DNA from: Jaapia argillacea MUCL 33604
Lineage: Eukaryota > Basidiomycota > Agaricomycetes > Jaapiales > Jaapiaceae
Direction: 5' to 3'
Assembly (NCBI GenBank): GCA_000697665.1
Contig: KL197749.1
Span: 200,988 to 264,987, forward strand
DNA length: 64,000 bases
Shown here: piece after piece, positions 3,004 through 63,361 of the stretch
Layout of the letters: each line of letters opens with the position of its first letter
Numbering within the stretch: position 1 is the stretch's first letter
Made by a program: the position numbers and the translations under genes
Notes under the pieces: model-generated
Databases searched by the model: none
What the model saw: only the letters and a program-made list of their open reading frames with translations
What the model was told of the DNA's origin: nothing

Positions 3004-5087
3004 CTAATAACGACCCCGAGACGACTTGAAATCCCTCTTGGAGTTCTGCAACGTCCTCTCTACATCAACACTTCCCCTCATCTTTCCCTTCCCAAACACA
3101 ACGACCGTTCCTTGTTCGCCAGCCCTCCCAGTCCTTCCCGCTCGATGCAAGAAATCAATCTGGTTCCGTGGCTCGTCGAGCATGAAGACATGCGTGAGGG
3201 ACGGAGAGAAGTCAAGGCCGCGGGAGAGGAGAGACGTCGTGATCAGCACATTCGGAGTCTCCTTGGGTTTGGCGACGGGGTGTTCTGAATCCGACGAAGT
3301 GGCCATTGGGTCCTTCTGCTTCTTGGAGGAGACCTGCGGTTTCAGGAACCCGGCCAAATGCCGGTTGCTCCCAATGCTTCGGGCTTCACTGGTACTCGTG
3401 AGCGCCAAGTTGGGAATTCCCTTCTCCTCCAAATACTTCCCCAGCTCTTCTACCTTCGTACTCCTATTACAGAACACCAGCACTTTCGACTTCTCCGACC
3501 GCCCTTGGTGCGCGTCTTCATCCCACACTCTACGAATTCGCTTCTCAACATCGGAATTCCGGTTTCCCGTAGATGGACCGACGTGTTCAGTTTTCAGAGA
3601 GGATGGGAGTTGGTGAAGTTTGGGAGAGGCAAGGCGGATGAGATTGGGGTGATGTGTGTCGAGATAGGAAGCGAGCGATGCGGGGATTGTTGCGGTCGTC
3701 ATGATGAAATGGAATGGATACATCAAAACACCAGGGCGTACCCCTCTGTCTTCCGGCGATTCTGGCAAAACTCGACCACGAGCCTCACTAATGTCGGATA
3801 GCAGCATTTGGGTGTACTCCAGGAAGTCAGGATCTATTTGAATACCATATGAACGATGTTAACAGTGACCAAGAACAAAACCCAACTGACCGAATAGTAC
3901 ATCCGCTTCATCAACAACGACATACTCGATCTTCTCCAAGTTCAACTCCGGCTCTCGCTTGAAAAACGATTGCTCTTCTGACGGATCTGCCTGTGTCTCC
4001 GGTTGTCTGTCCCAACCGTAGCCGCGTACCATGTCGAGGAGTTTCATAGGTGTACCCACCAGTAGGTCGGCGTTCCTCCCATACTCAGTTTCTCGGGGAG
4101 GCCTAACCTCGAACTCGGCACTCGCATCACCATCTGCACCTGCAGAAGTGGTATCCCCAGACATCTTGGAAGCGGTAGAAGAACGCGATGTGTTGGGTAG
4201 GTTTGCTCGAGATGCGCAGCGAACCCGTAATTTTTCGATGTGGGTAAGTGACTTTGCAAATGAGGTTAGCTGTCGGGATAGCTCATGTGTCGGTGCAATG
4301 ATAAGCCCTCGCGGTGACGGGAGGTGTGAATGGAGTTGGGCTTGTCGATGTGGTGAATTGTGGGGCATTTCCGTACGTTTCAGGTTGTGTAAGAGAGGAA
4401 GGAGATAGGCAAACGATTTTCCTGAACCCGTTTCAGATGCCAGAAGACATTGATGCCAACGCTGGTGAGAAGGGAGACCAGAACGATGCACATTACTCGT
4501 TTTGGAGTCAGGGACAAGATGCTTTATCGCGAGCGACTGAATGGGAGTGGGCACTGCTGATGGACCCAACACGTCTCGAACAGACTCCACCAGTCCTCTC
4601 AGCAACGGCGGACCGAAAGACCTGGGTAAGTCTTTGATCGGCTGAAGCCTCTTTGGAGACAGCTGCAGTTCGTCCTCAAGAGAATGTCGTAGTCTAGCTC
4701 TCCGCAGGACTAGGGAGGGAGACGGCTTCGAAGAATCAGATGTCCCTGGCTGTTCTCCAGGGTGAGGGAGATCATCGCGAACAAATTTCGGTTCCGGGGT
4801 AGGCTGTCGCTTTGGCGGGGAAGGACGACGAGGAGCAACTTCCACTCGGCGAGGTTGTTGGCGACTCGCCACTTTGGGTGTCAGGTTATCAACCAGTCGC
4901 TTGCGTGCCGGCACTGAAACCAACACCTGAGACGCAAGTACGGAAAATGGCAGGTAAACGACTCACTTTTCTTGTTTCGCTGGCCACCACTGAGGTGCAC
5001 CGGCGAGGTATGGAAGCATGATGCACGATACTCCAGACACAGGCATTGGGTTTTCAATGTGTGTGATGAACGGAGGAGAAGGGACAT
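3004..5087 (-). CDS. MRH4: Mitochondrial DEAD-box RNA helicase, Mrh4-like
   Basis: ATP-dependent RNA helicase. The motif order is complete: Q-region FGPPLLRGLVES, motif I ASETGSGKS, Ia APTHELSRQL, Ib VGTPMKLLDM, II DEAD, III TAT (in MTTATIP), IV VLVFCNRSTK, V TSLLSRGLDF and VI HRAGRTGRAG. The first exon starts at ATG 5087 and reads MSLLLRSSHTLKTQ, later FHTSPVH. It is basic, Ser-rich and lacks acidic residues, a typical mitochondrial presequence. It is spliced (donor ~4966, acceptor ~4911) to PARKRLVDNL. A second intron (~3888-3840) falls right after DEADVLF and restores DEADVLFDPDF. Known role of yeast Mrh4: assembly of the large mitoribosomal subunit. The inference of the same role rests on the presequence and the SAT-to-TAT change. 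The 5' end faces LSM6 across a 250-bp shared promoter. Confidence 0.85.
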
Positions 5088-5337
5088 GGCCGTCCGGCGA
5101 GTTGTCGATCAAGGCCAATTACAATGGTCAGGTTTGAGACGAGAAACAAGGCCTCGAGATTCAATGAGCTGCTAGTGGATGTGAAGCTGAGATTACTCAG
5201 TACATGGCCTATAAGAAGTGTATAGATAATTGAATGAGAGAGCCAGGCAAGGAAGTGACAGCAGCGGACGAAGTTGGACCTGGCGTTGGACTTCAAATTT
5301 TTTCAATTTCGGCTTCACGCGCTCGCACAAACCTGCC
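5088..5337. promoter_or_regulatory. Bidirectional promoter between MRH4 and LSM6
   Basis: The 250 bp lie between two divergent start codons, so both promoters must fit here or overlap the 5' UTRs. I see no clear TATA box. The block just before the LSM6 ATG is pyrimidine-rich (runs of T and TC). Confidence 0.55.
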
Positions 5338-5752
5338 ATGGACGAAACCACTCCGCCCCCACCGCCTGCAGAAACTTCTCCGCCTCCCCCGCCTCCTCCT
5401 GCACCATCAGCACCATCGGGATCACCGTCAGATTTCCTGAAGGGTGTAGTACGCAAACGTGTTGTCGTCCGACTCACTTCAGGCGTCGATTATCGAGGTG
5501 AGGCACTCATCTACGCTCGACTCGAACATAACAACATAACGTCTCCATCTTTCAGGTGTTCTTTCATGTCTCGATGGTTATATGAACATCGCCCTTGAAC
5601 AGACAGAGGAGTACGTCAATGGCCGTGTTACGAATCGGTATGGGGATGCATTCATACGAGGGAACAATGGTGAGTCTATCGTGAACAGTGCCTTCGTTCC
5701 TTTCCTAACAGACCCCACAGTCTTGTATATCTCCGCAGCTGAAGCAATATAG
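5338..5752 (+). CDS. LSM6: U6 snRNA-associated Sm-like protein LSm6
   Basis: LSm6 is one of seven ring subunits of LSm2-8 (U6 snRNP, splicing) and LSm1-7 (cytoplasmic mRNA decay). Three exons: 5338-5497, 5556-5669 and 5721-5752. The Sm fold is complete: Sm1 from DFLKGVVRKRVVVRLTSG to GYMNIALEQTEEY, and Sm2 with GDAFIRGNNVLYISA. The protein ends SAAEAI, close to the usual LSm6 C terminus. Unusual is a ~30-residue N-terminal extension of Pro, Ser and Thr (MDETTPPPPP, then a second Pro run) before the Sm domain; canonical LSm6 starts almost at DFL. It may be a disordered lead, or translation may start further in, but no internal ATG precedes the Sm1 motif. Confidence 0.93.
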
Positions 5753-20478: not shown

Positions 20479-22481
20479 GACCGTCCTACATCTTGCAATC
20501 ATTATAGGGCCAGCTGCAGTGGGACTCCAGGAGGCATCGAGTGTTGAAGATTGGCCAAAGACTGGCAGTCAACATCGGGTTAGGAAGTGTCAGATAATGC
20601 CGAAGTCGAACATGTGCAATTTTCACTCATCCCTCTCTTCGACTTGGTACATTTGCGCCCTCAGCATTCACGACTTCCACATACTTCCCTCCATGGCAAA
20701 CCATCTGCAAACCTCTCGCAAGTTAGAGAGACAATTCGCTTCTCCAATATCTTGGGCAACAACCTCCTTGCTTCATGAACATCTCAGGTGACAACCTCCC
20801 CTGTCCCTTCCACAACGATGCTCGCCGTCATTCTACCACCAGCCATGACCAGCAATTCCAACAACGGAGCGCCCTCTGCCTAGAGAAGTCATCTGAATCT
20901 CAAACGCCTCCTGCTACCATTTTCAAGGCCGATTGTTCAGTCAATCACCATTTTTCCCAGCCTCGCGCTCTTATTGTACTTACGTTTGCTCGCCTCTAGT
21001 ACGGTTCGTTCTTCTACTCTACCACCATAGCAGTTACTGATCCCTTTGTGTTGAATTCAGCAGGAGTGGAAGCCGGCCATCCTGCCCACTCCTCACTTAA
21101 ATGCAAACGTGAATGTGAACGCTCACCCAACGCTCCCCTCTGAGACACCCACATGGCCCAGGGCTATACTTCTGCATCCACACCATCTGCACCACCAACC
21201 ACCTCAGCTCAACCACCCTCCACCCCCTCCCAGAGTCCAACTTCTTCAGTTTCTTCCTGCACTTCCGAATGGCCATCCTCCCATCCTCTGACCCCTATCA
21301 ATAACACTAATGCTACTGCCAATTGCAGATGTTGTGGCGCCGACTGGGACAGAGCTAAATGTGAAGACTGAGGACAGGGCTGATATGTATGAAGAGAGGC
21401 GCCCTACTTCGATGGCCGTGACAAGGTGGTGAAGATTCTCATCTCTTGTCCTAGCTGTTCTGGTGAGTAGCTCAACATCCCCATTCTTTGCGTAGACCTG
21501 ACGAGAAATACTATTGCTCGACATCGCAATCTTACGTTGAGTGAGCCCTCAATGTATTCTCGGCCCCCACCTTGAAGACAGATGGCTTCCGAATCCCGTG
21601 TCCCTTCCATTGTGCTCCTCACATCCTTCAGAGTGATTCATCCGACATCTGTTCAGCACTGTCGTGCATGAATTATGGCATTGACGCGAAGAGGACATTG
21701 TGGTATTGGTGGTTTGGGTGAGTACGACCCTTTTCATACCCCATATATCTAGTGTACCAACCCTTCCACTTTATGCAGAATGGTCACTGTCTTGGGGAAG
21801 TGTTCAAGGGAGAGCATAGCAATAAGAGGACCCAATCGCCATCACATTGCGCGGCCATTCTATCATACCATCTTGTTGACGACATAGAGGCAATAGGCAC
21901 TTTCCTAATCTGTGACCATGTTCTATCTGCAATACATGAGTGCTCAACGTGGAGATCTTGTCCTTTACCATCATGGACACCAGCAATCAGCACCAGGTCA
22001 AGTTTTCTCTGCGAGCGTGGTAGATTCCCGCCACACTTTCGAAGAATCGTTCCGAGTAGCATCTCTATCCCCTCTTATCGGCTTTCGCTATCACAACATT
22101 CACTCTTTTCATCCGTTGGATGCTCAGATCAACCGGATCCAATAAAAAGTCAATACTATGGAGTGTCGCAGATCAGATTGAGTCAAGAAAAGTATATTAT
22201 GTGCCCAACATCGACGCCACACTTGGACAATGGTCAGCATCGCATCAATTTGAAGTTCTCATAGTAGTCAGTGATGTTGCTCACCCACCGGTTGGTCAAT
22301 AGAGTGTGCAGAAAACCCCGATAAGAGAATATGAAAATTTCATTGAGAACAATGGCAAGTGATTACAACAGTGACCATCTAGGTAATAACATGATAAAAA
22401 GTGAAAGTTCATCTAAGCCGAGACAAGAGTGCGAGAAAGTCTGATTGACCAAGGGAAAAAGCATCCACATCGCAAGACCTC
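20479..22481. other. Repeat-island DNA, no confirmed gene
   Basis: Short open frames only. One (21153-21371, +) reads MAQGYTSASTPSAPP, is rich in Ser, Pro and Thr, and ends CRCCGADWDRAKCED. It could be an exon of an accessory gene, but I find no partners. Base use is AT-richer and less ordered than in the flanking gene-dense DNA. The 180 bp before 22482 is the 3' flank of the coiled-coil gene. Confidence 0.35.
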
Positions 22482-23980
22482 CTAGGTACCGCAAGCAAGG
22501 GCATCCGAAGCCATCATGAAACGATCTTTGAGGGCTTGGACCTCTCTGGCCTGAATATCCAGTTCTTGCTTCTTTTGCTGAAAGGCAGCGACAGCGTCCT
22601 TGCTCTGCTGGGCAGCATCTTCGTGTTGACGATCAGCAATCGTTGCTCATCCTCGAGCGTTGTCATGCATTTGCTCCAAGATTTGTTTCGAAACGACAAT
22701 CTCTTGCGTCCGGACCTCCAACTTTTGGCTGACCAGCTTGATTTCTTGTTGCTTGAGGACCGCAGCAAAGCCATGAACATGAAGCTGAGTGACCATATTG
22801 ATATCAGGGAATGGCCTGTTGAGCTTCATAGCAGCCAAGACCTGTTGCTTGTAGGCACTGTCGAACTACAGGCACGACACCTAGCATGAGTAAAGTGCAA
22901 CCAAGATTGTTTCACTCATGTATTTAGGGTCAAGGTCATTCTCGTTGTTTGTAGCCTTCTTGTGCGACTTCACCCTTGTCTACGCAAGTCAATTCGCTCT
23001 GCTAGTAAAATAAGTACGACATACTTTTCCAGCTGGAGGCTCGCAACGGCAATTCAAGATAAGCACCACATCTAGAGGAGAAATACGCATAACGAGAATA
23101 CCTTTGGGGCACCAGCCACATCCGCATCAGAGACGTCACCCTCATCCGTAATATCATTGAGGTGATTGACAATTAGCTTTCATCCCTTCTTGCCTTTGGG
23201 CTTCGTCCCTGTGGTATTTGCAGTTGCAGGCTTTGCAGTGGCAGTGGGCTCTGCAGCGGGGGTGGGCTTTGCAGCGGTGGTGGGCTTCGGGTGTACCTCC
23301 TTATCAGAATCTTGACTGCCTTCATCACCCTGTGCTTGTCTGTCACTTTCATCATCAGACAAGATAATCTGGGGAGGGTATTAAAATCAGAGGTGGTTGG
23401 TGAGTAATACAATCTCACAGGGTGACGACTCCCAATTTGACATGATGGCCCAGCTGCGGCATTGGTAGTCTTTGTCCTCTTCAGAGCAGGTATAGATGTT
23501 TCTAGCAAATAGTTGTTGTTGTTGTTGTTGTTGTTGTTGTCATTCCTTGCCCGTTTCCCAAGCAAGCTTGCACCCAGACTATAGCAAAGGTGTTGATATA
23601 TGACTATATGCTGAAGAAAACACTGGGAACTTGCCTAGTATCGCAGTTTTCAGCATCTTTTGCAAGGGCTTCAGGAGCATGCTTGAACACAGCTTGTGCG
23701 GCCACCAACCTACGATGCTTGACAACAGAGACACAAAGGAAATGAGTTACAATGATACCTGGTTGCCCTAACATTGGCTATTCTGAAAATGTGGGGTAAG
23801 CTTGGCGCAGTTGAAAAAATGAACTACCTACACTTCATCGCTGTGAGGGACGTCAGGGTTGTTCAGTTCGTAATGTCTCAACGCATCGTCGTTCGAAGTA
23901 ACTGCAAGGGCTTTCAGGCCAGTCAAACTGCGAGGAATGCACTGTTCTTCAGGAACATGAGACTTGGACTTTGGAACCAT
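22482..23980 (-). pseudogene. Coiled-coil/Asn-rich partner gene, in-frame stop
   Basis: Divergent neighbour of the recombinase-like gene; family not recognised. The probable start is ATG 23980 (MVPKSKSHVPEEQ; 5' end uncertain). Exon pieces continue through RRLVAAQAVFKHAPEALAKD, then GKRARND and a run of nine Asn, a lysine-rich patch, SDDESDRQAQGDEGSQDSDK, an Ala/Pro/Thr repeat, and a coiled-coil tail (FDSAYKQQVLAAMKLNRPFP, later QEIKLVSQKLEVRTQEIV). After EQMHDNARG a TGA (about 22649) interrupts the frame. The same frame stays open for 52 more codons with clear coiled-coil character (DAVAAFQQKKQELDIQAREV) to TAG at 22482. This suggests a recent nonsense mutation or an alternative end. The content suits a nuclear protein that dimerises; a role in the element is inference. 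Confidence 0.5.
23511..23540 (-). repeat. Trinucleotide repeat coding poly-Asn
   Basis: About ten tandem GTT units (AAC on the coding strand) give nine or more Asn in the partner protein. Such tracts vary in length between strains. Confidence 0.8.
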
Positions 23981-24222
23981 AGCACACTGCACCAAGGACG
24001 ATACCAGAGAGACCGAGTGGTATTGGGAATGGAATGGCACTGAACGGACTTTGGAAGCAAAGTCATCACGTCAACGATGACCGTCACCCATATCACGCTT
24101 CCCATCGCAGACAATCACACATACAAGCTTCACACCCGTGCCCTCGGTTTCTGTCGTCTATATAGTCTGTAAGACTGCCTTTTTCAAGATGAGCCCTCTT
24201 TCACCTTGCCCCCCACATCACC
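23981..24222. promoter_or_regulatory. Divergent promoter of the accessory gene pair
   Basis: The 242 bp lie between the two divergent starts. A TATATAG at 24159-24165 sits 58 nt before the recombinase-like ATG. Shared control of the two genes is likely from spacing alone. Confidence 0.45.
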
Positions 24223-27151
24223 ATGCCCTGGCAACCCAATGCCAGAGCTGCACAGTGGCTCAGTGTCTGTGAAGATCAGGTCTTTGAGCTCATTTTCGAG
24301 TCTTGGGAGGATGAGAAAGATAATGTTATCGCATTGGGGGAACATAGTTGTTTAGATCGACTGGCTGTTATCAAAGCATATGCAGTCTACGTTGCAGCTT
24401 TCCACAAAGGTTTCATCGACAACGAGTGGTGTGTCAATGGATTACTTAGTGCGCCATTCATGACTTCCACTCTCACAACCATACTGATCATCTACTTGTT
24501 CAGCTCGCCTGTGGCAATTTTTCTGTTGAAGAGTTCAGAACTTGCACTCCACCAAGTACGCAGGGGAGCGGATGGGATACAGAACTATGGTCGGCTTCAG
24601 ATGGGTTATCCTGGGACTCATAAGGCGAACTATGTTCTCGTGGACTACCCAAGTGTCCCTGATACACATCTCAGATAACCGAACTTACCAAACCCGATGA
24701 TATTCAATCCAAGATCAATCGAGATGAGACATTCCGAGTACGTCTTCACTTGGATATTCTACACCCCAGTTCTGAGTCCTGCATAGCTGACATTTCACTC
24801 AGTGGTGTACTGTCCTTCAGCGCCGGTTTAAATTACGAATGGAAGTTGCAAAAAAATTATACTTTGGTCCCCCAGAAGCTAAGCTATTGATTGTGACTGC
24901 CTTGACCAATCCCATCTCGTACACAAATGTCAGTGCTCTTGATTGATATCCTTGCTTCCACCACTCAAACCGTTTTCCTAGGCACTTCAACATTGCGTGG
25001 CTTTCCTCTTCAAGTTGATGTTTGGGCCTCGCCCCTCGTTGCTGTATGCTGTCAAAGGCTACCTAGACTGCTATATGCTAGTCAAGGTAGGCTCATCTCA
25101 TCATTCCAGATTCACTGTCAGTCCTAATGCCTCAGCAGGATGTTACACTGGTCCAGGAACACACGAAAGGATGTGGGAGGTTCTCTGTTGAGATTGTAGT
25201 CAGGTGGTTCAAGGGCCGCCATATCAACAGCCGCATGAGATTGATGTATACCCTTCGTTCAACCATCGCTCACGAATATCTTGATATGGATGTGGGTTGC
25301 TACCTCATTGCCCTCGGTGTTTGCAGGGGTCTATTCAAGGATTACGAAACTGTCAAGTCACTGCTCAATGGCTCAGAGTATCGACTACGGTGGAAAGATG
25401 ATGTCCTAGAATTCCCCTTATTCCTCAAGTCAAAGCCATGTGGACTGGGTGTCACAGATGAACCAATGACTGACGTGAACCACAGAGAGTATTTGCAGCA
25501 TATCAGTATCAAATGTGGCATGGGCGGTACGGATTCTAATTGTATTTTTCTGCAAGTCTAACATTGGTTCCAGGCTCAGAGTCAGGTGTGTTGTCATATC
25601 CATTTCGTCGGAATATGGCTATAGTGGTGGCTGCTGCATTGGGGTCACATATCGCACATACGGGAATGGGCCATGCTGCAGACACCACCACAATGGAGGA
25701 AAGTTATGACGACAACAATTCACGAACTGATTATGTTGGAGCCATGATGAATGAAGCCATTCGCCCTCCCCGGGAAGCAAAAATTCTTGAGTCTCATGCT
25801 TTCAATAGGTTAGAACCTCATCTGTTCAAGATGATAGGCCTACATGTTGTAGCTGAATATCAATCACAGGGCAACCACACTAGAAGATGGCCCTGAGCTC
25901 ACATTCCGAGAGCTTTGTGTCCGAGTCCCTATACTCAAACTACTCGCCAAGCAAGCCAAAGATCTGTACCGTTGTGTGGAACAGGGAGAGAACGACTGGA
26001 AAACATTTGTTGTATGTGGTTTTGTGTTTCGTAATTCTCCCAGCTTGACCTCCTTGTAGCTTGACCACCGAATCCTTTCTGATGAAGATGATGCAGTCAC
26101 GGCCTACACTTGGACCAAGCGCTGTATCAAAAGATTGATCAAGCGAGAGCGACGTGTTATCAACAAAGAGTGGCGCGAGAAGGAGCTGGCGTCTGTGAAC
26201 CCCTCAGGTGCCAAGCTTGAGTGGCACAAGAACAAGATTGAAGAGATGTCAGTGGCACAAATCCTACAAGCCGCCAAGGACAGTGCTGATAGTAACCAAC
26301 ATGTTGATGACGGAGACGATACTGGAGACCCATCTATCTCGACTCTCAATATTGAGACCTCACCTCTCATCTTGGGGGAGTTGAACATCGAGGACAGTCA
26401 GGAGGATGGAGATGATGCTGAGGTCGAGCGAGTGAACTTCATCATGTGTGTAGACTTGCCTTTTTCCCCACTTCATCAAATTTTGATGACTTCCATGTCT
26501 AGGAATCTTGCTACCATGGTCGAACCTCCTCCAGCTGCCCAATTTTGTGATTTGTGCGAGGACGATATCACGTGCACCCCCGAAGATATTCAGAAGGACT
26601 GGAAAATCCCAGCCAAACTTAACTGCCACCAGAACCAACAATTCCATAAGCCGCAGATGCAAGCGACCCAACTACTTGTCATCTGGAACTGCTGATTTGG
26701 TCGTAGTGAGTGGTTTTGCTGATCTCTTGGTGTGTTTCTCATTTGCAAGTTAGACACGGTGCGCTGCCATTTTTGTGGGGTTGATGACCCAGATGCAGGT
26801 GATGCAAGCTTTGGTGCAACAAACTACTGCAAGAAGTGGGCTTTGATCCAGCACATTGTGGAGGATCATCCCACACAATTATCGACTGTCGAGAAGGACA
26901 TTCTCATCACTGCAAATGAGATGCATACCCCTGCCCTGGTTCACGACGATGATGACATGAATTCTGAGTACCATGATGATCCAGGACCTGCAGGTGACGA
27001 GATATTCCAGTGCTCGAAGGAGTTGGTGGAAATGGCTGATGCTGATATTGACACAAGCTGGTACAAGGGGGACAGTGACAAGTTGGATGAAATGCAGGTG
27101 GATGGAAGTAGTGAGGGGATGGAGTTCGGATCTGATGTTGAAGGACTCTGA
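24223..27151 (+). CDS. FluG/DUF3435-type tyrosine-recombinase-like protein
   Basis: Multi-exon gene (about nine exons) starting MPWQPNARAAQWLSV. The middle matches what I know of FluG/DUF3435 proteins, whose fold is that of tyrosine recombinases such as Crypton enzymes and Starship captains. In order: GPRPS (25024-25038, candidate first catalytic Arg), VVRWFKGR, CRGLFKDYETVKSLL, then YPFRR (25597-25611, the H/Y-x-x-R box), MGHA (25666-25677) and the candidate nucleophile Tyr in EESYDDN (25705). All four catalytic-type positions are present and correctly ordered. A basic stretch KRLIKRERRVINKEW follows, then CDLC and a C2H2-like finger CHFCG...HIVEDH (near 26775-26870), and an acidic tail to TGA 27151. 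I see no frame break; one intron donor (GTTCTC near 24632) is non-standard. Activity and mobility are not shown. Alternative: a domesticated DUF3435 gene with another role. Confidence 0.7.
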
Positions 27152-27927
27152 CCTGCATTGTATAATACCCTTCCGTCTTTGTCCAGTGTGCTGCAACATG
27201 TAGAACACTTTCATATGCCCCTCCTTTGAGGGGTTCTCCCACCCCATATTTCATCCACACTTTTCGACCAACCGGCGTGTGCCTTGTTTGTTCCGGGTGG
27301 TGCCACAGCTTCCGCACCAAGTCCAATGTACACACATCTTCATCATTTGCTAATTATTCTGCTTTGCATCCAAGTTGCCTTCATCCATAGGTTAACAGCA
27401 ATATTCTAGTGCTTGGGCAGCCCCAACAACCTTTCCCACTCACTCTGTTGTGTAAACCTCAACCGCACTGCTGAATCAAAATCTAGATCTGTTCAATTCT
27501 GAAGACTTCAAGACGCACGCAATCTGAGAATCCGAAACCAAATATTTGTAGTACAGTGTATTGTCAATGCAGTCCCACTGTACTTTCACATAGAATTTTC
27601 ACCACATCTTAGCTATGTGGTGCTTGAGCAGAGAGCCAAAGATCACACCATTCAGTGTCGAACCTCAGACTCACCTGCTCACACCTTGAGCAGGGGCTTG
27701 TATATATTGTACCTATTTCCAAAGTTCTCCTGTACATGCAGTAATGACAACAATCACCAGTTGTCTCAATCCACCCTTCCAGCTTTCATTATAGCTTTCC
27801 ATACCAAAGGAGGGGCAAATGATGACACATGTCGGCACTTCCCTAGCACCGAAGCCGCACAAGATTAAGAATACAAATGAGGAATCGGTGGTGGGAGAGA
27901 AAGGGAACAAATGGTAGGATAAAAAAA
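27152..27927. other. 3' flank of recombinase-like gene, no gene seen
   Basis: AT-rich stretch without convincing exons. Antisense frames at 26879-27335 shadow the recombinase exons. If the pair belongs to a mobile element, its right end should lie here or slightly beyond, but I find no terminal repeat. Confidence 0.4.
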
Positions 27928-62366: not shown

Positions 62367-63361
62367 ATGGCTGGAGGATCAGGTGGAGCAGCAGCGGCAG
62401 TAGCAGCAGCAACTGCCAATCCTGACCCCAGTAAAGGTCTCGCTGCGAGACCAGAAATATTCACCAGGGACAAGCAAAAGTTCGGGAGATGGTGGAGAAG
62501 CATGCAGCTTTTCCTCCGCAATCCCAAGAACGGAACATTGTCGGAAACGGAAAAACCAACATCCTGATTTCCCATATCAGGGGCCCAGACGTCGACACAT
62601 GGGTCGAAAACTTTTGGGATGAATATTGGGATGAGACCAACAACAAGTGGCAAAAATCTTGGGTTGATGTCGTCAAGATCCTCAAAGAAGGATTTGAGGA
62701 CTCGAATCTGCAGCGCCAAGCAGAACTCGAGTTGGAACATTTGGTGCAAGGAAAGGACTCAGCAGAAGAGTTCTTTCAAAAGTTCGAGATACTGAGGAAC
62801 AGGGCAAAGTATGACAAGAACAACACACATCTGTTGTTGTTGCTTGAGCAGAACATCAATAACGGTATCATCGACAAAATCTACGGGGTTACGCCTCTCC
62901 CCGCAGATTACGACGCATGGAAAAAGGCGATCCTGGTGCATGACGCACTGTGGAGGAGATGTTTGGAGAACAAACGTCTTCAAGGACAGACTTCGTCGTG
63001 GAAAAAGAGCATTGACACTCCATCGACATCCACAACAAAACAGCAGGCTCCTACTGCTGGGCAAACAAGAGGAGATAAGAAAGACGCCACAGGAAAGACG
63101 TACAGCAGAATGGGTCAACCAATGGACCTAAACCGTGCATGCCTTAAATGTGGCGCAAAACAGAGCGATAAGGGGAGCTGTGGAAGCCCCTGGCATACCC
63201 TGAATCGAACGACAGGAACGACTTCTGGAACAGTCGCCGTCCGAGCTGTAGAATGGGGCACTGACACCTCAAAATCACAGCTAGCCGCCCTAGTCAATGA
63301 ATGGGCAATCAAAGACCCTGCCGGGTTCAAAAAGGCGGGTTTTCAGATCGGAACGGCTTGA
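62367..63361 (+). CDS. Retrotransposon Gag, with frameshift
   Basis: The capsid-type Gag reads MAGGSGGAAAAVAAATANP, then RDKQKFGRWWRSMQLFLRNP. At 62550-62556 (GGAAAAAC) the frame must slip by -1 to continue as TNILISHIRGPDVDTWVENF. The rest is one open frame with FEDSNLQRQAELELEHLVQG, DSAEEFFQKFEILRNRA and a Cys/His-poor knuckle CLKCGAKQSDKGSCGSPWH. It ends FQIGTA then TGA. Slippage inside capsid is not a normal Gag device, so a lost A in the run is the likely cause. Upstream of 62367 the same frame stays open from ~62133 and encodes an acidic run (SDDEEEIEEEDEN), so the natural start may be further 5'. Confidence 0.75.

Follow-up and report, generated by a model that had tools for sequence, protein, structure and literature searches.

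A candidate captain-type tyrosine recombinase and its recurrent divergent partner in a probable mobile element relic of the basidiomycete Jaapia argillacea

In a 64,000-nucleotide stretch of the genome of the basidiomycete Jaapia argillacea MUCL 33604 (hereafter the window; contig KL197749.1, C41:200988-264987 in our contig numbering), a plus-strand gene at 24223..27151 is predicted from its sequence to encode a DUF3435-type (Starship-captain) tyrosine recombinase, and a second gene, with a coiled-coil-like tail, lies head to head with it on the minus strand. Both the captain-type recombinase and its head-to-head partner are genuine, and we consider it most likely, with a probability of roughly 0.6, that they form the core of an old family of mobile elements, present in low copy number, of which this locus is a decayed member. 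The enzyme family, the catalytic register, the recurrence of the pair, and the CpG decay of the window copy were observed directly in the window and in searches of the 43.7-Mb assembly (95 contigs), and the recurrence of the pairing at two further genomic loci suggests an old and little-described kind of mobile element. Movement of the two-gene unit, binding of its ends by the recombinase fingers, and help from the partner are steps that we infer from this recurrence and from the layout.

Active site and family of the recombinase

The recombinase gene was read as about ten exons, with frames and splice signals judged by eye and the pieces located by script (24223-24429, 24675-24737, 24803-24928, 24982-25086, and 25139-25528, followed by 25576-25809, 25871-26011, 26060-26443, 26504-26689, and 26753-27151). 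The introns are short with plausible GT-AG boundaries, a further small exon within 24430-24674 is uncertain, and all 10 pieces align to a relative on contig C50. An earlier, sequence-only reading had listed four catalytic-type positions in order, and each was located and its codon checked: the Arg of GPRPS (Arg I; 25030-25032), the YPFRR box (25597-25611), in which a Tyr at the place of Cre His289 precedes Arg II, the His of MGHA (25672-25674), and the candidate nucleophilic Tyr of EESYDDN (25705-25707). To these we add a candidate catalytic Lys in WFKGRH (25211-25213), which that reading had not listed. The R, K, YxxRR, H, and Y residues are invariant across a three-row alignment (A1) in which the window gene is set against the C50 and C12 relatives, and the MGHA His and the candidate nucleophile were also placed by the profile alignment described below.

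The active site of the Sanctuary captain comprises R260, A263, K308, Y424, R427, and Y458, with a Tyr replacing Cre His289, and the matching HhpA tyrosines, Y381 and Y416, are reported to be necessary for function (PMC12506042). The residue spacings in the window protein (R-K 43, Y-R 3, R-Y 33, Y-Y 36) are close to those of Sanctuary (48, 3, 31, and 34), and the HhpA Y-Y spacing is 35 (PMC12506042). By order and spacing, the Lys at 25211 would be the counterpart of Sanctuary K308 and Cre K201, and the MGHA His would, by spacing, occupy the place of Cre Trp315. Because a Tyr stands at the Cre His289 place and the spacings are captain-like, the recombinase follows the captain pattern and not the R-H-R-Y tetrad of Cryptons. 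The locus does resemble the Cryptons (CryptonF, including Cryptococcus Cn1) in being a small fungal unit with a tyrosine recombinase; however, Cryptons are described with that tetrad, and CryptonF also with a GCR1_C domain (PMC3212892), whereas the window gene has YxxRR, C2H2-like fingers, and Pfam similarity to DUF3435 only. A Tyr lies where the first Crypton His is expected, and GCR1_C gave no Pfam match at E ≤ 10.

The DUF3435 assignment made in the sequence-only reading finds its strongest support in a comparison with C50:70k, the only gene listed by a genome-wide DUF3435 search (70.7 bits for one exon and 93.6 bits once spliced). A two-row profile built from the window gene and its C50 pair copy aligned to C50:70k with hhalign over 203 columns (E 4.7e-7, probability 92.6%), with ERPG/PRPS, KG, RR, MGH, and Tyr all co-aligned. 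None of 200 shuffled C50:70k sequences reached the profile score (best 26.7 vs 52.7), a Ras-like control protein gave a probability of 0.2%, and the C12 relative aligned at 99.8%. In direct comparisons with the Pfam DUF3435 model, whose scores could be inflated by the hand-picking of exons, a hand-spliced 250-residue core of the window protein scored 21.2 bits (E 1.6e-4), the full 745-residue model was weaker (17.2 bits, E 0.0026), and a hand-joined core of the C12 relative scored 27.9 bits, above the curated PF11917 cut-off of 25.8 bits. Beyond this family, PDB sequences gave no match at E ≤ 10 with A1, A3, or the C50:70k protein, a search of a large protein database with the recombinase gave 5753 candidates with none at E ≤ 0.001, and searches of viral contigs with the recombinase and partner profiles gave 16 and 40 pattern matches, respectively, none of which was confirmed. 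C50:70k itself (in L022 = C50:66000-75500, at about 3700-5700 therein) lies ~19 kb from the C50 pair and is clearly a DUF3435 gene, of a second lineage and with normal CpG content; it has relatives on C10 (with one stop) and C7.

Like Starship captains (DUF3435, PF11917), the window gene combines DUF3435 homology and an R..K..YxxR..Y order with a C-terminal DNA-binding-type region following the recombinase domain. In that region, a first C2H2-like finger (CDLC...H...H; 26504..26689) is also present in the relatives on C44, C50, C22, and C15, and a second (CHFC...H...H; 26753..26932) in those on C44, C50, and C15. The finger described previously as an addition to the window gene is thus present without being peculiar to it, and to judge from these sequences the fingers are a feature of the family; the second finger had been missed, as had an in-frame TGA after the first (26693..26695), which could be spliced out only from an upstream donor that looks weak by eye. 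Unlike Starship captains, the window recombinase has a divergent partner directly upstream and is accompanied by no demonstrated cargo, accessory gene, or direct repeat. Captains are also expected to have fewer introns.

Recurrence of the pair and decay of the window copy

The partner gene (about 22488..23980, minus strand, intron structure not resolved) encodes a conserved N-terminal motif, a low-complexity middle, the segment FPDxxMxTQLHVxGFA, which is its clearest motif, and a tail that looks coiled-coil-like by eye; a 70-residue piece gave no Pfam match above cut-off. The inferred start codons of the two genes are separated by 242 bases (23981..24222), compared with ~285 bases in the C50 copy. 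A protein search of the genome gave eight recombinase matches at six places (the window on C41, C44, C50, C3, C22, and C12), and C15 is a seventh recombinase locus at which only the gene ends were found, that is, the first exon and the finger exons, in opposite orientations. The partner was found at four loci (C41, C50, C15, and C22:71k) and has recombinase sequence as its neighbor at three of them (C41, C50, and C15). The C50 layout matches that of the window, with recombinase and partner on opposite strands and their starts facing away, and on C15 the pair consists of relics; on C22, a partner relic at 71.4-71.8 kb lies ~27 kb from the recombinase relic. The divergent coiled-coil partner proposed in the sequence-only reading is therefore a real gene, genuinely tied to the recombinase in a recurrent association, with an in-frame TGA in the coiled-coil-like region (22647..22649, minus strand).

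Both window genes are depleted of CpG, with observed/expected ratios of 0.53 for the recombinase and 0.57 for the partner, compared with a median of 0.91 and a minimum of 0.76 among 91 overlapping 3-kb tiles outside the repeat island that surrounds them. Some relatives are similarly or more strongly depleted (0.50 for C44, 0.23 for C3, and 0.09 for C22); the ratios are 1.04 and 1.01 for the C50 pair, 1.15 for C12, 0.98 for C50:70k, and 0.93 for C15. The recombinase probably carries the in-frame TGA noted above, and, with CpG depletion and in-frame TGAs in both genes, the window copy is most likely a relic. Every exon placed in the C50 relative is open, and the C44 duplicate of that relative is decayed and interrupted. 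Between these two, 209 CpG sites of C50 are TpG or CpA in C44 vs 49 in the reverse direction, and the loss extends to all four NCG contexts, the pattern expected of methylated-CpG deamination.

Over 590 codons, C50 and C44 differ by 0.062 nonsynonymous (dN) and 0.246 synonymous (dS) substitutions per site (dN/dS ~0.25), with 2 stops in C44 (3 TGA are counted over a stretch that takes in an intron), and this low ratio despite the stops suggests that the protein was constrained for much of the divergence. The window and C50 genes share 47% amino acid identity over 654 codons; dS is saturated, and 64% of third, 40% of first, and 30% of second codon positions differ, a third-position excess consistent with the derivation of both from constrained genes.

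At the nucleotide level, C50 and C44 are 84-87% identical over C50 ~86.3-92.7 kb, a shared block that covers the recombinase from the counterpart of window exon 24803-24928 onward and ~3.8 kb downstream. No left edge of this duplication was found, and weak similarity continues as far as about C50:85377; on the right, the duplication stops in C44 at the edge of an insertion whose ends look inverted by eye, after which repeats run to the contig end. C44 gives no reading on the partner, since this insertion breaks the gene and the contig then ends. By eye, the insertion in the recombinase gene and the degenerate tandem-like sequence following it occupy L020:6043-7605, and C44 also carries a ~1.84-kb insertion relative to C50 at about 246893-248730 (L066/L020). 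Downstream of the recombinase, four frames designated D0-D3 (L021:95-1940 on C50 and L020:1054-2793 on C44) share 57-90% amino acid identity between the loci; none of the four scanned on C50 reached a Pfam cut-off, and it is possible that they are further genes of the element. A minus-strand frame ~5 kb from the C50 recombinase end (L065:2-433; C50:84501-84932) resembles TET/JBP 2OG-Fe(II) dioxygenases below the Pfam cut-off (E 0.0025).

Element, host gene pair, or Starship remnant

Tyrosine recombinases cleave DNA strands with a tyrosine, form a covalent 3′-phosphotyrosine link, and recombine without a double-strand break. In an active form of the proposed element, the Tyr at 25705 would make this link, the C-terminal fingers would bind the element ends, and the recombinase would excise the element and join it to a new site; the partner may act as a co-expressed nuclear accessory factor, for instance in assembly or in determining direction. 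The window copy would have been silenced and broken after it inserted, through methylation and deamination of its CpG sites. A more ambitious proposal, which we hold only tentatively, is that the pair represents a family of compact, two-gene transposons of captain type in a basidiomycete, with the head-to-head coiled-coil partner as an obligate co-factor; such a family would be a small cargo-less Starship relative, possibly near the ancestral form of the cargo-carrying Starships. If true, the known range of this recombinase class would widen to include a small unit of a captain-class enzyme with a fixed partner. Such a unit would provide a minimal system for finding out which other factors a captain depends on, and would be relevant to the origin of Starships. 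The C50 pair makes the element question testable.

Several observations weigh against a mobile element with this core. No element ends, target direct repeats, or empty site were found in this one genome, and the window unit has no near-identical copy, with no DNA match elsewhere in the genome except in the flanking repeat. The partner is present at only three of the seven recombinase-bearing loci, and a tblastn search (E ≤ 0.2) detected none in the 9.5-kb stretches that contain the recombinase matches on C3, on C12, and at C22:99.9k. C50 and C44 could be related by segmental duplication. As to the enzyme, both window models fall below the Pfam cut-off, the C50 relative alone has no Pfam match, the genome-wide DUF3435 search listed neither the window gene nor the C50 pair relative, and a structure prediction of exon 25139-25528 alone, unspliced, was not used (mean predicted local distance difference test score 44.6). 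The sequence-only reading had raised the possibility that the pair travels together and had proposed a search for multi-copy pairs in this genome; recurrence was confirmed, head to head on C50 and as relics on C15, whereas the window copy is broken and CpG-decayed and has no close duplicate. That an unrelated gene merely has scattered R, H, and Y residues, as the sub-threshold window scores and the lack of PDB matches would allow, is very improbable, given the co-aligned motifs of the profile match, its behavior against shuffled and control sequences, and the C12 core that passes the cut-off.

We regard it as unlikely, though deserving of more weight than chance resemblance, that an old element was co-opted by the host, such that the C50 pair are working host genes and the window, C44, and C15 copies are duplicated pseudogenes. 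The normal CpG content of the C50 pair is consistent with this, as are the C50-C44 dN/dS, the lack of a DNA copy elsewhere of the C50 partner and the 5′ half of its recombinase, and the retention of an open partner fragment on C15 though the recombinase core was not found there. However, all catalytic residues are retained, whereas the domesticated DUF3504 genes derived from Cryptons are described as having lost theirs (PMC3212892), and there are several decayed copies, with that in the window sitting among repeats.

It is less probable still that the locus is the remnant of a large Starship, with the recombinase as captain at one edge and the block shared downstream by C50 and C44 (D0-D3) as cargo. 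The active site is of the captain type, the position of the shared block is that expected of cargo, and Starships, which in the Pezizomycotina are described as moving large cargos of genes (PMC12134995, PMC12257634), have been reported in a basidiomycete, Tremella fuciformis, in 2026 (PMC13066641). The eight elements reported there range from 41,942 to 605,797 bp, and one, SS04, is described with a captain, direct repeats, and inverted repeats (PMC13066641); by description, our locus would be like them a recombinase-led element outside the Pezizomycotina. A captain would be the first gene of its element, whereas in the window and on C50 the partner lies upstream of the recombinase; moreover, no direct repeats were found, the sub-threshold downstream frames reveal no known Starship accessory family, and in the window repeats begin ~60 bases past the gene. 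A literature search on DUF3435, Starship, captain, and Crypton in basidiomycetes, with the main Starship papers outside its reach, returned the Tremella report (PMC13066641) as its one basidiomycete Starship, and within the same reach we found no account of a recombinase paired with a divergent coiled-coil gene. As a conserved two-gene unit, the pair appears to be new.

Repeat setting and flanking sequences

Genes with Pfam matches, a Peptidase_C54 gene at ~15.4-16.6 kb of the window and a Ras-family gene at ~31 kb, flank a repeat island that fills the stretch between them; the scan took in 10 of the 46 window frames of at least 150 codons. The island had been recognized in the sequence-only reading, and its multi-copy repeats border the recombinase-partner unit (~22.0-27.2 kb) on both sides, which we count in favor of a mobile element. 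On the partner side, repeats at 20586..22026 stop at an edge (22025-22026) common to three genomic copies; on the other side, a repeat at 27211..27846 starts at ~27211-27216, ~60 bases beyond the recombinase stop. The latter has 18-nucleotide inverted repeats (27211-27228 and 27805-27822). It is present nearly in full on C85 and in part on several other contigs, with no copy near a recombinase match, and it looks like a separate family resembling miniature inverted-repeat transposable elements.

Short direct repeats at the edges were among the features that the sequence-only reading had proposed to look for; a comparison of the window flanks gave none of at least 10 bases, the shortest length within the search. 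The flanks share an inverted match of 10 bases (22288 and 27266), which was rejected as element ends because its right half lies inside the multi-copy repeat at 27211-27846. We also compared exact shared words of 10-14 bases between the flanks of the window, C50, and C15, each against one shuffle. The longest window-C50 word slightly exceeds that of the shuffle on both the partner side (12 vs 10) and the recombinase side (13 vs 11), and other comparisons were equal or shorter; because the words are not collinear, nothing is drawn from them. A tRNA search of the window, run with the bacterial code, reported no gene, and a retrotransposon gag domain lies at 62435-63358.

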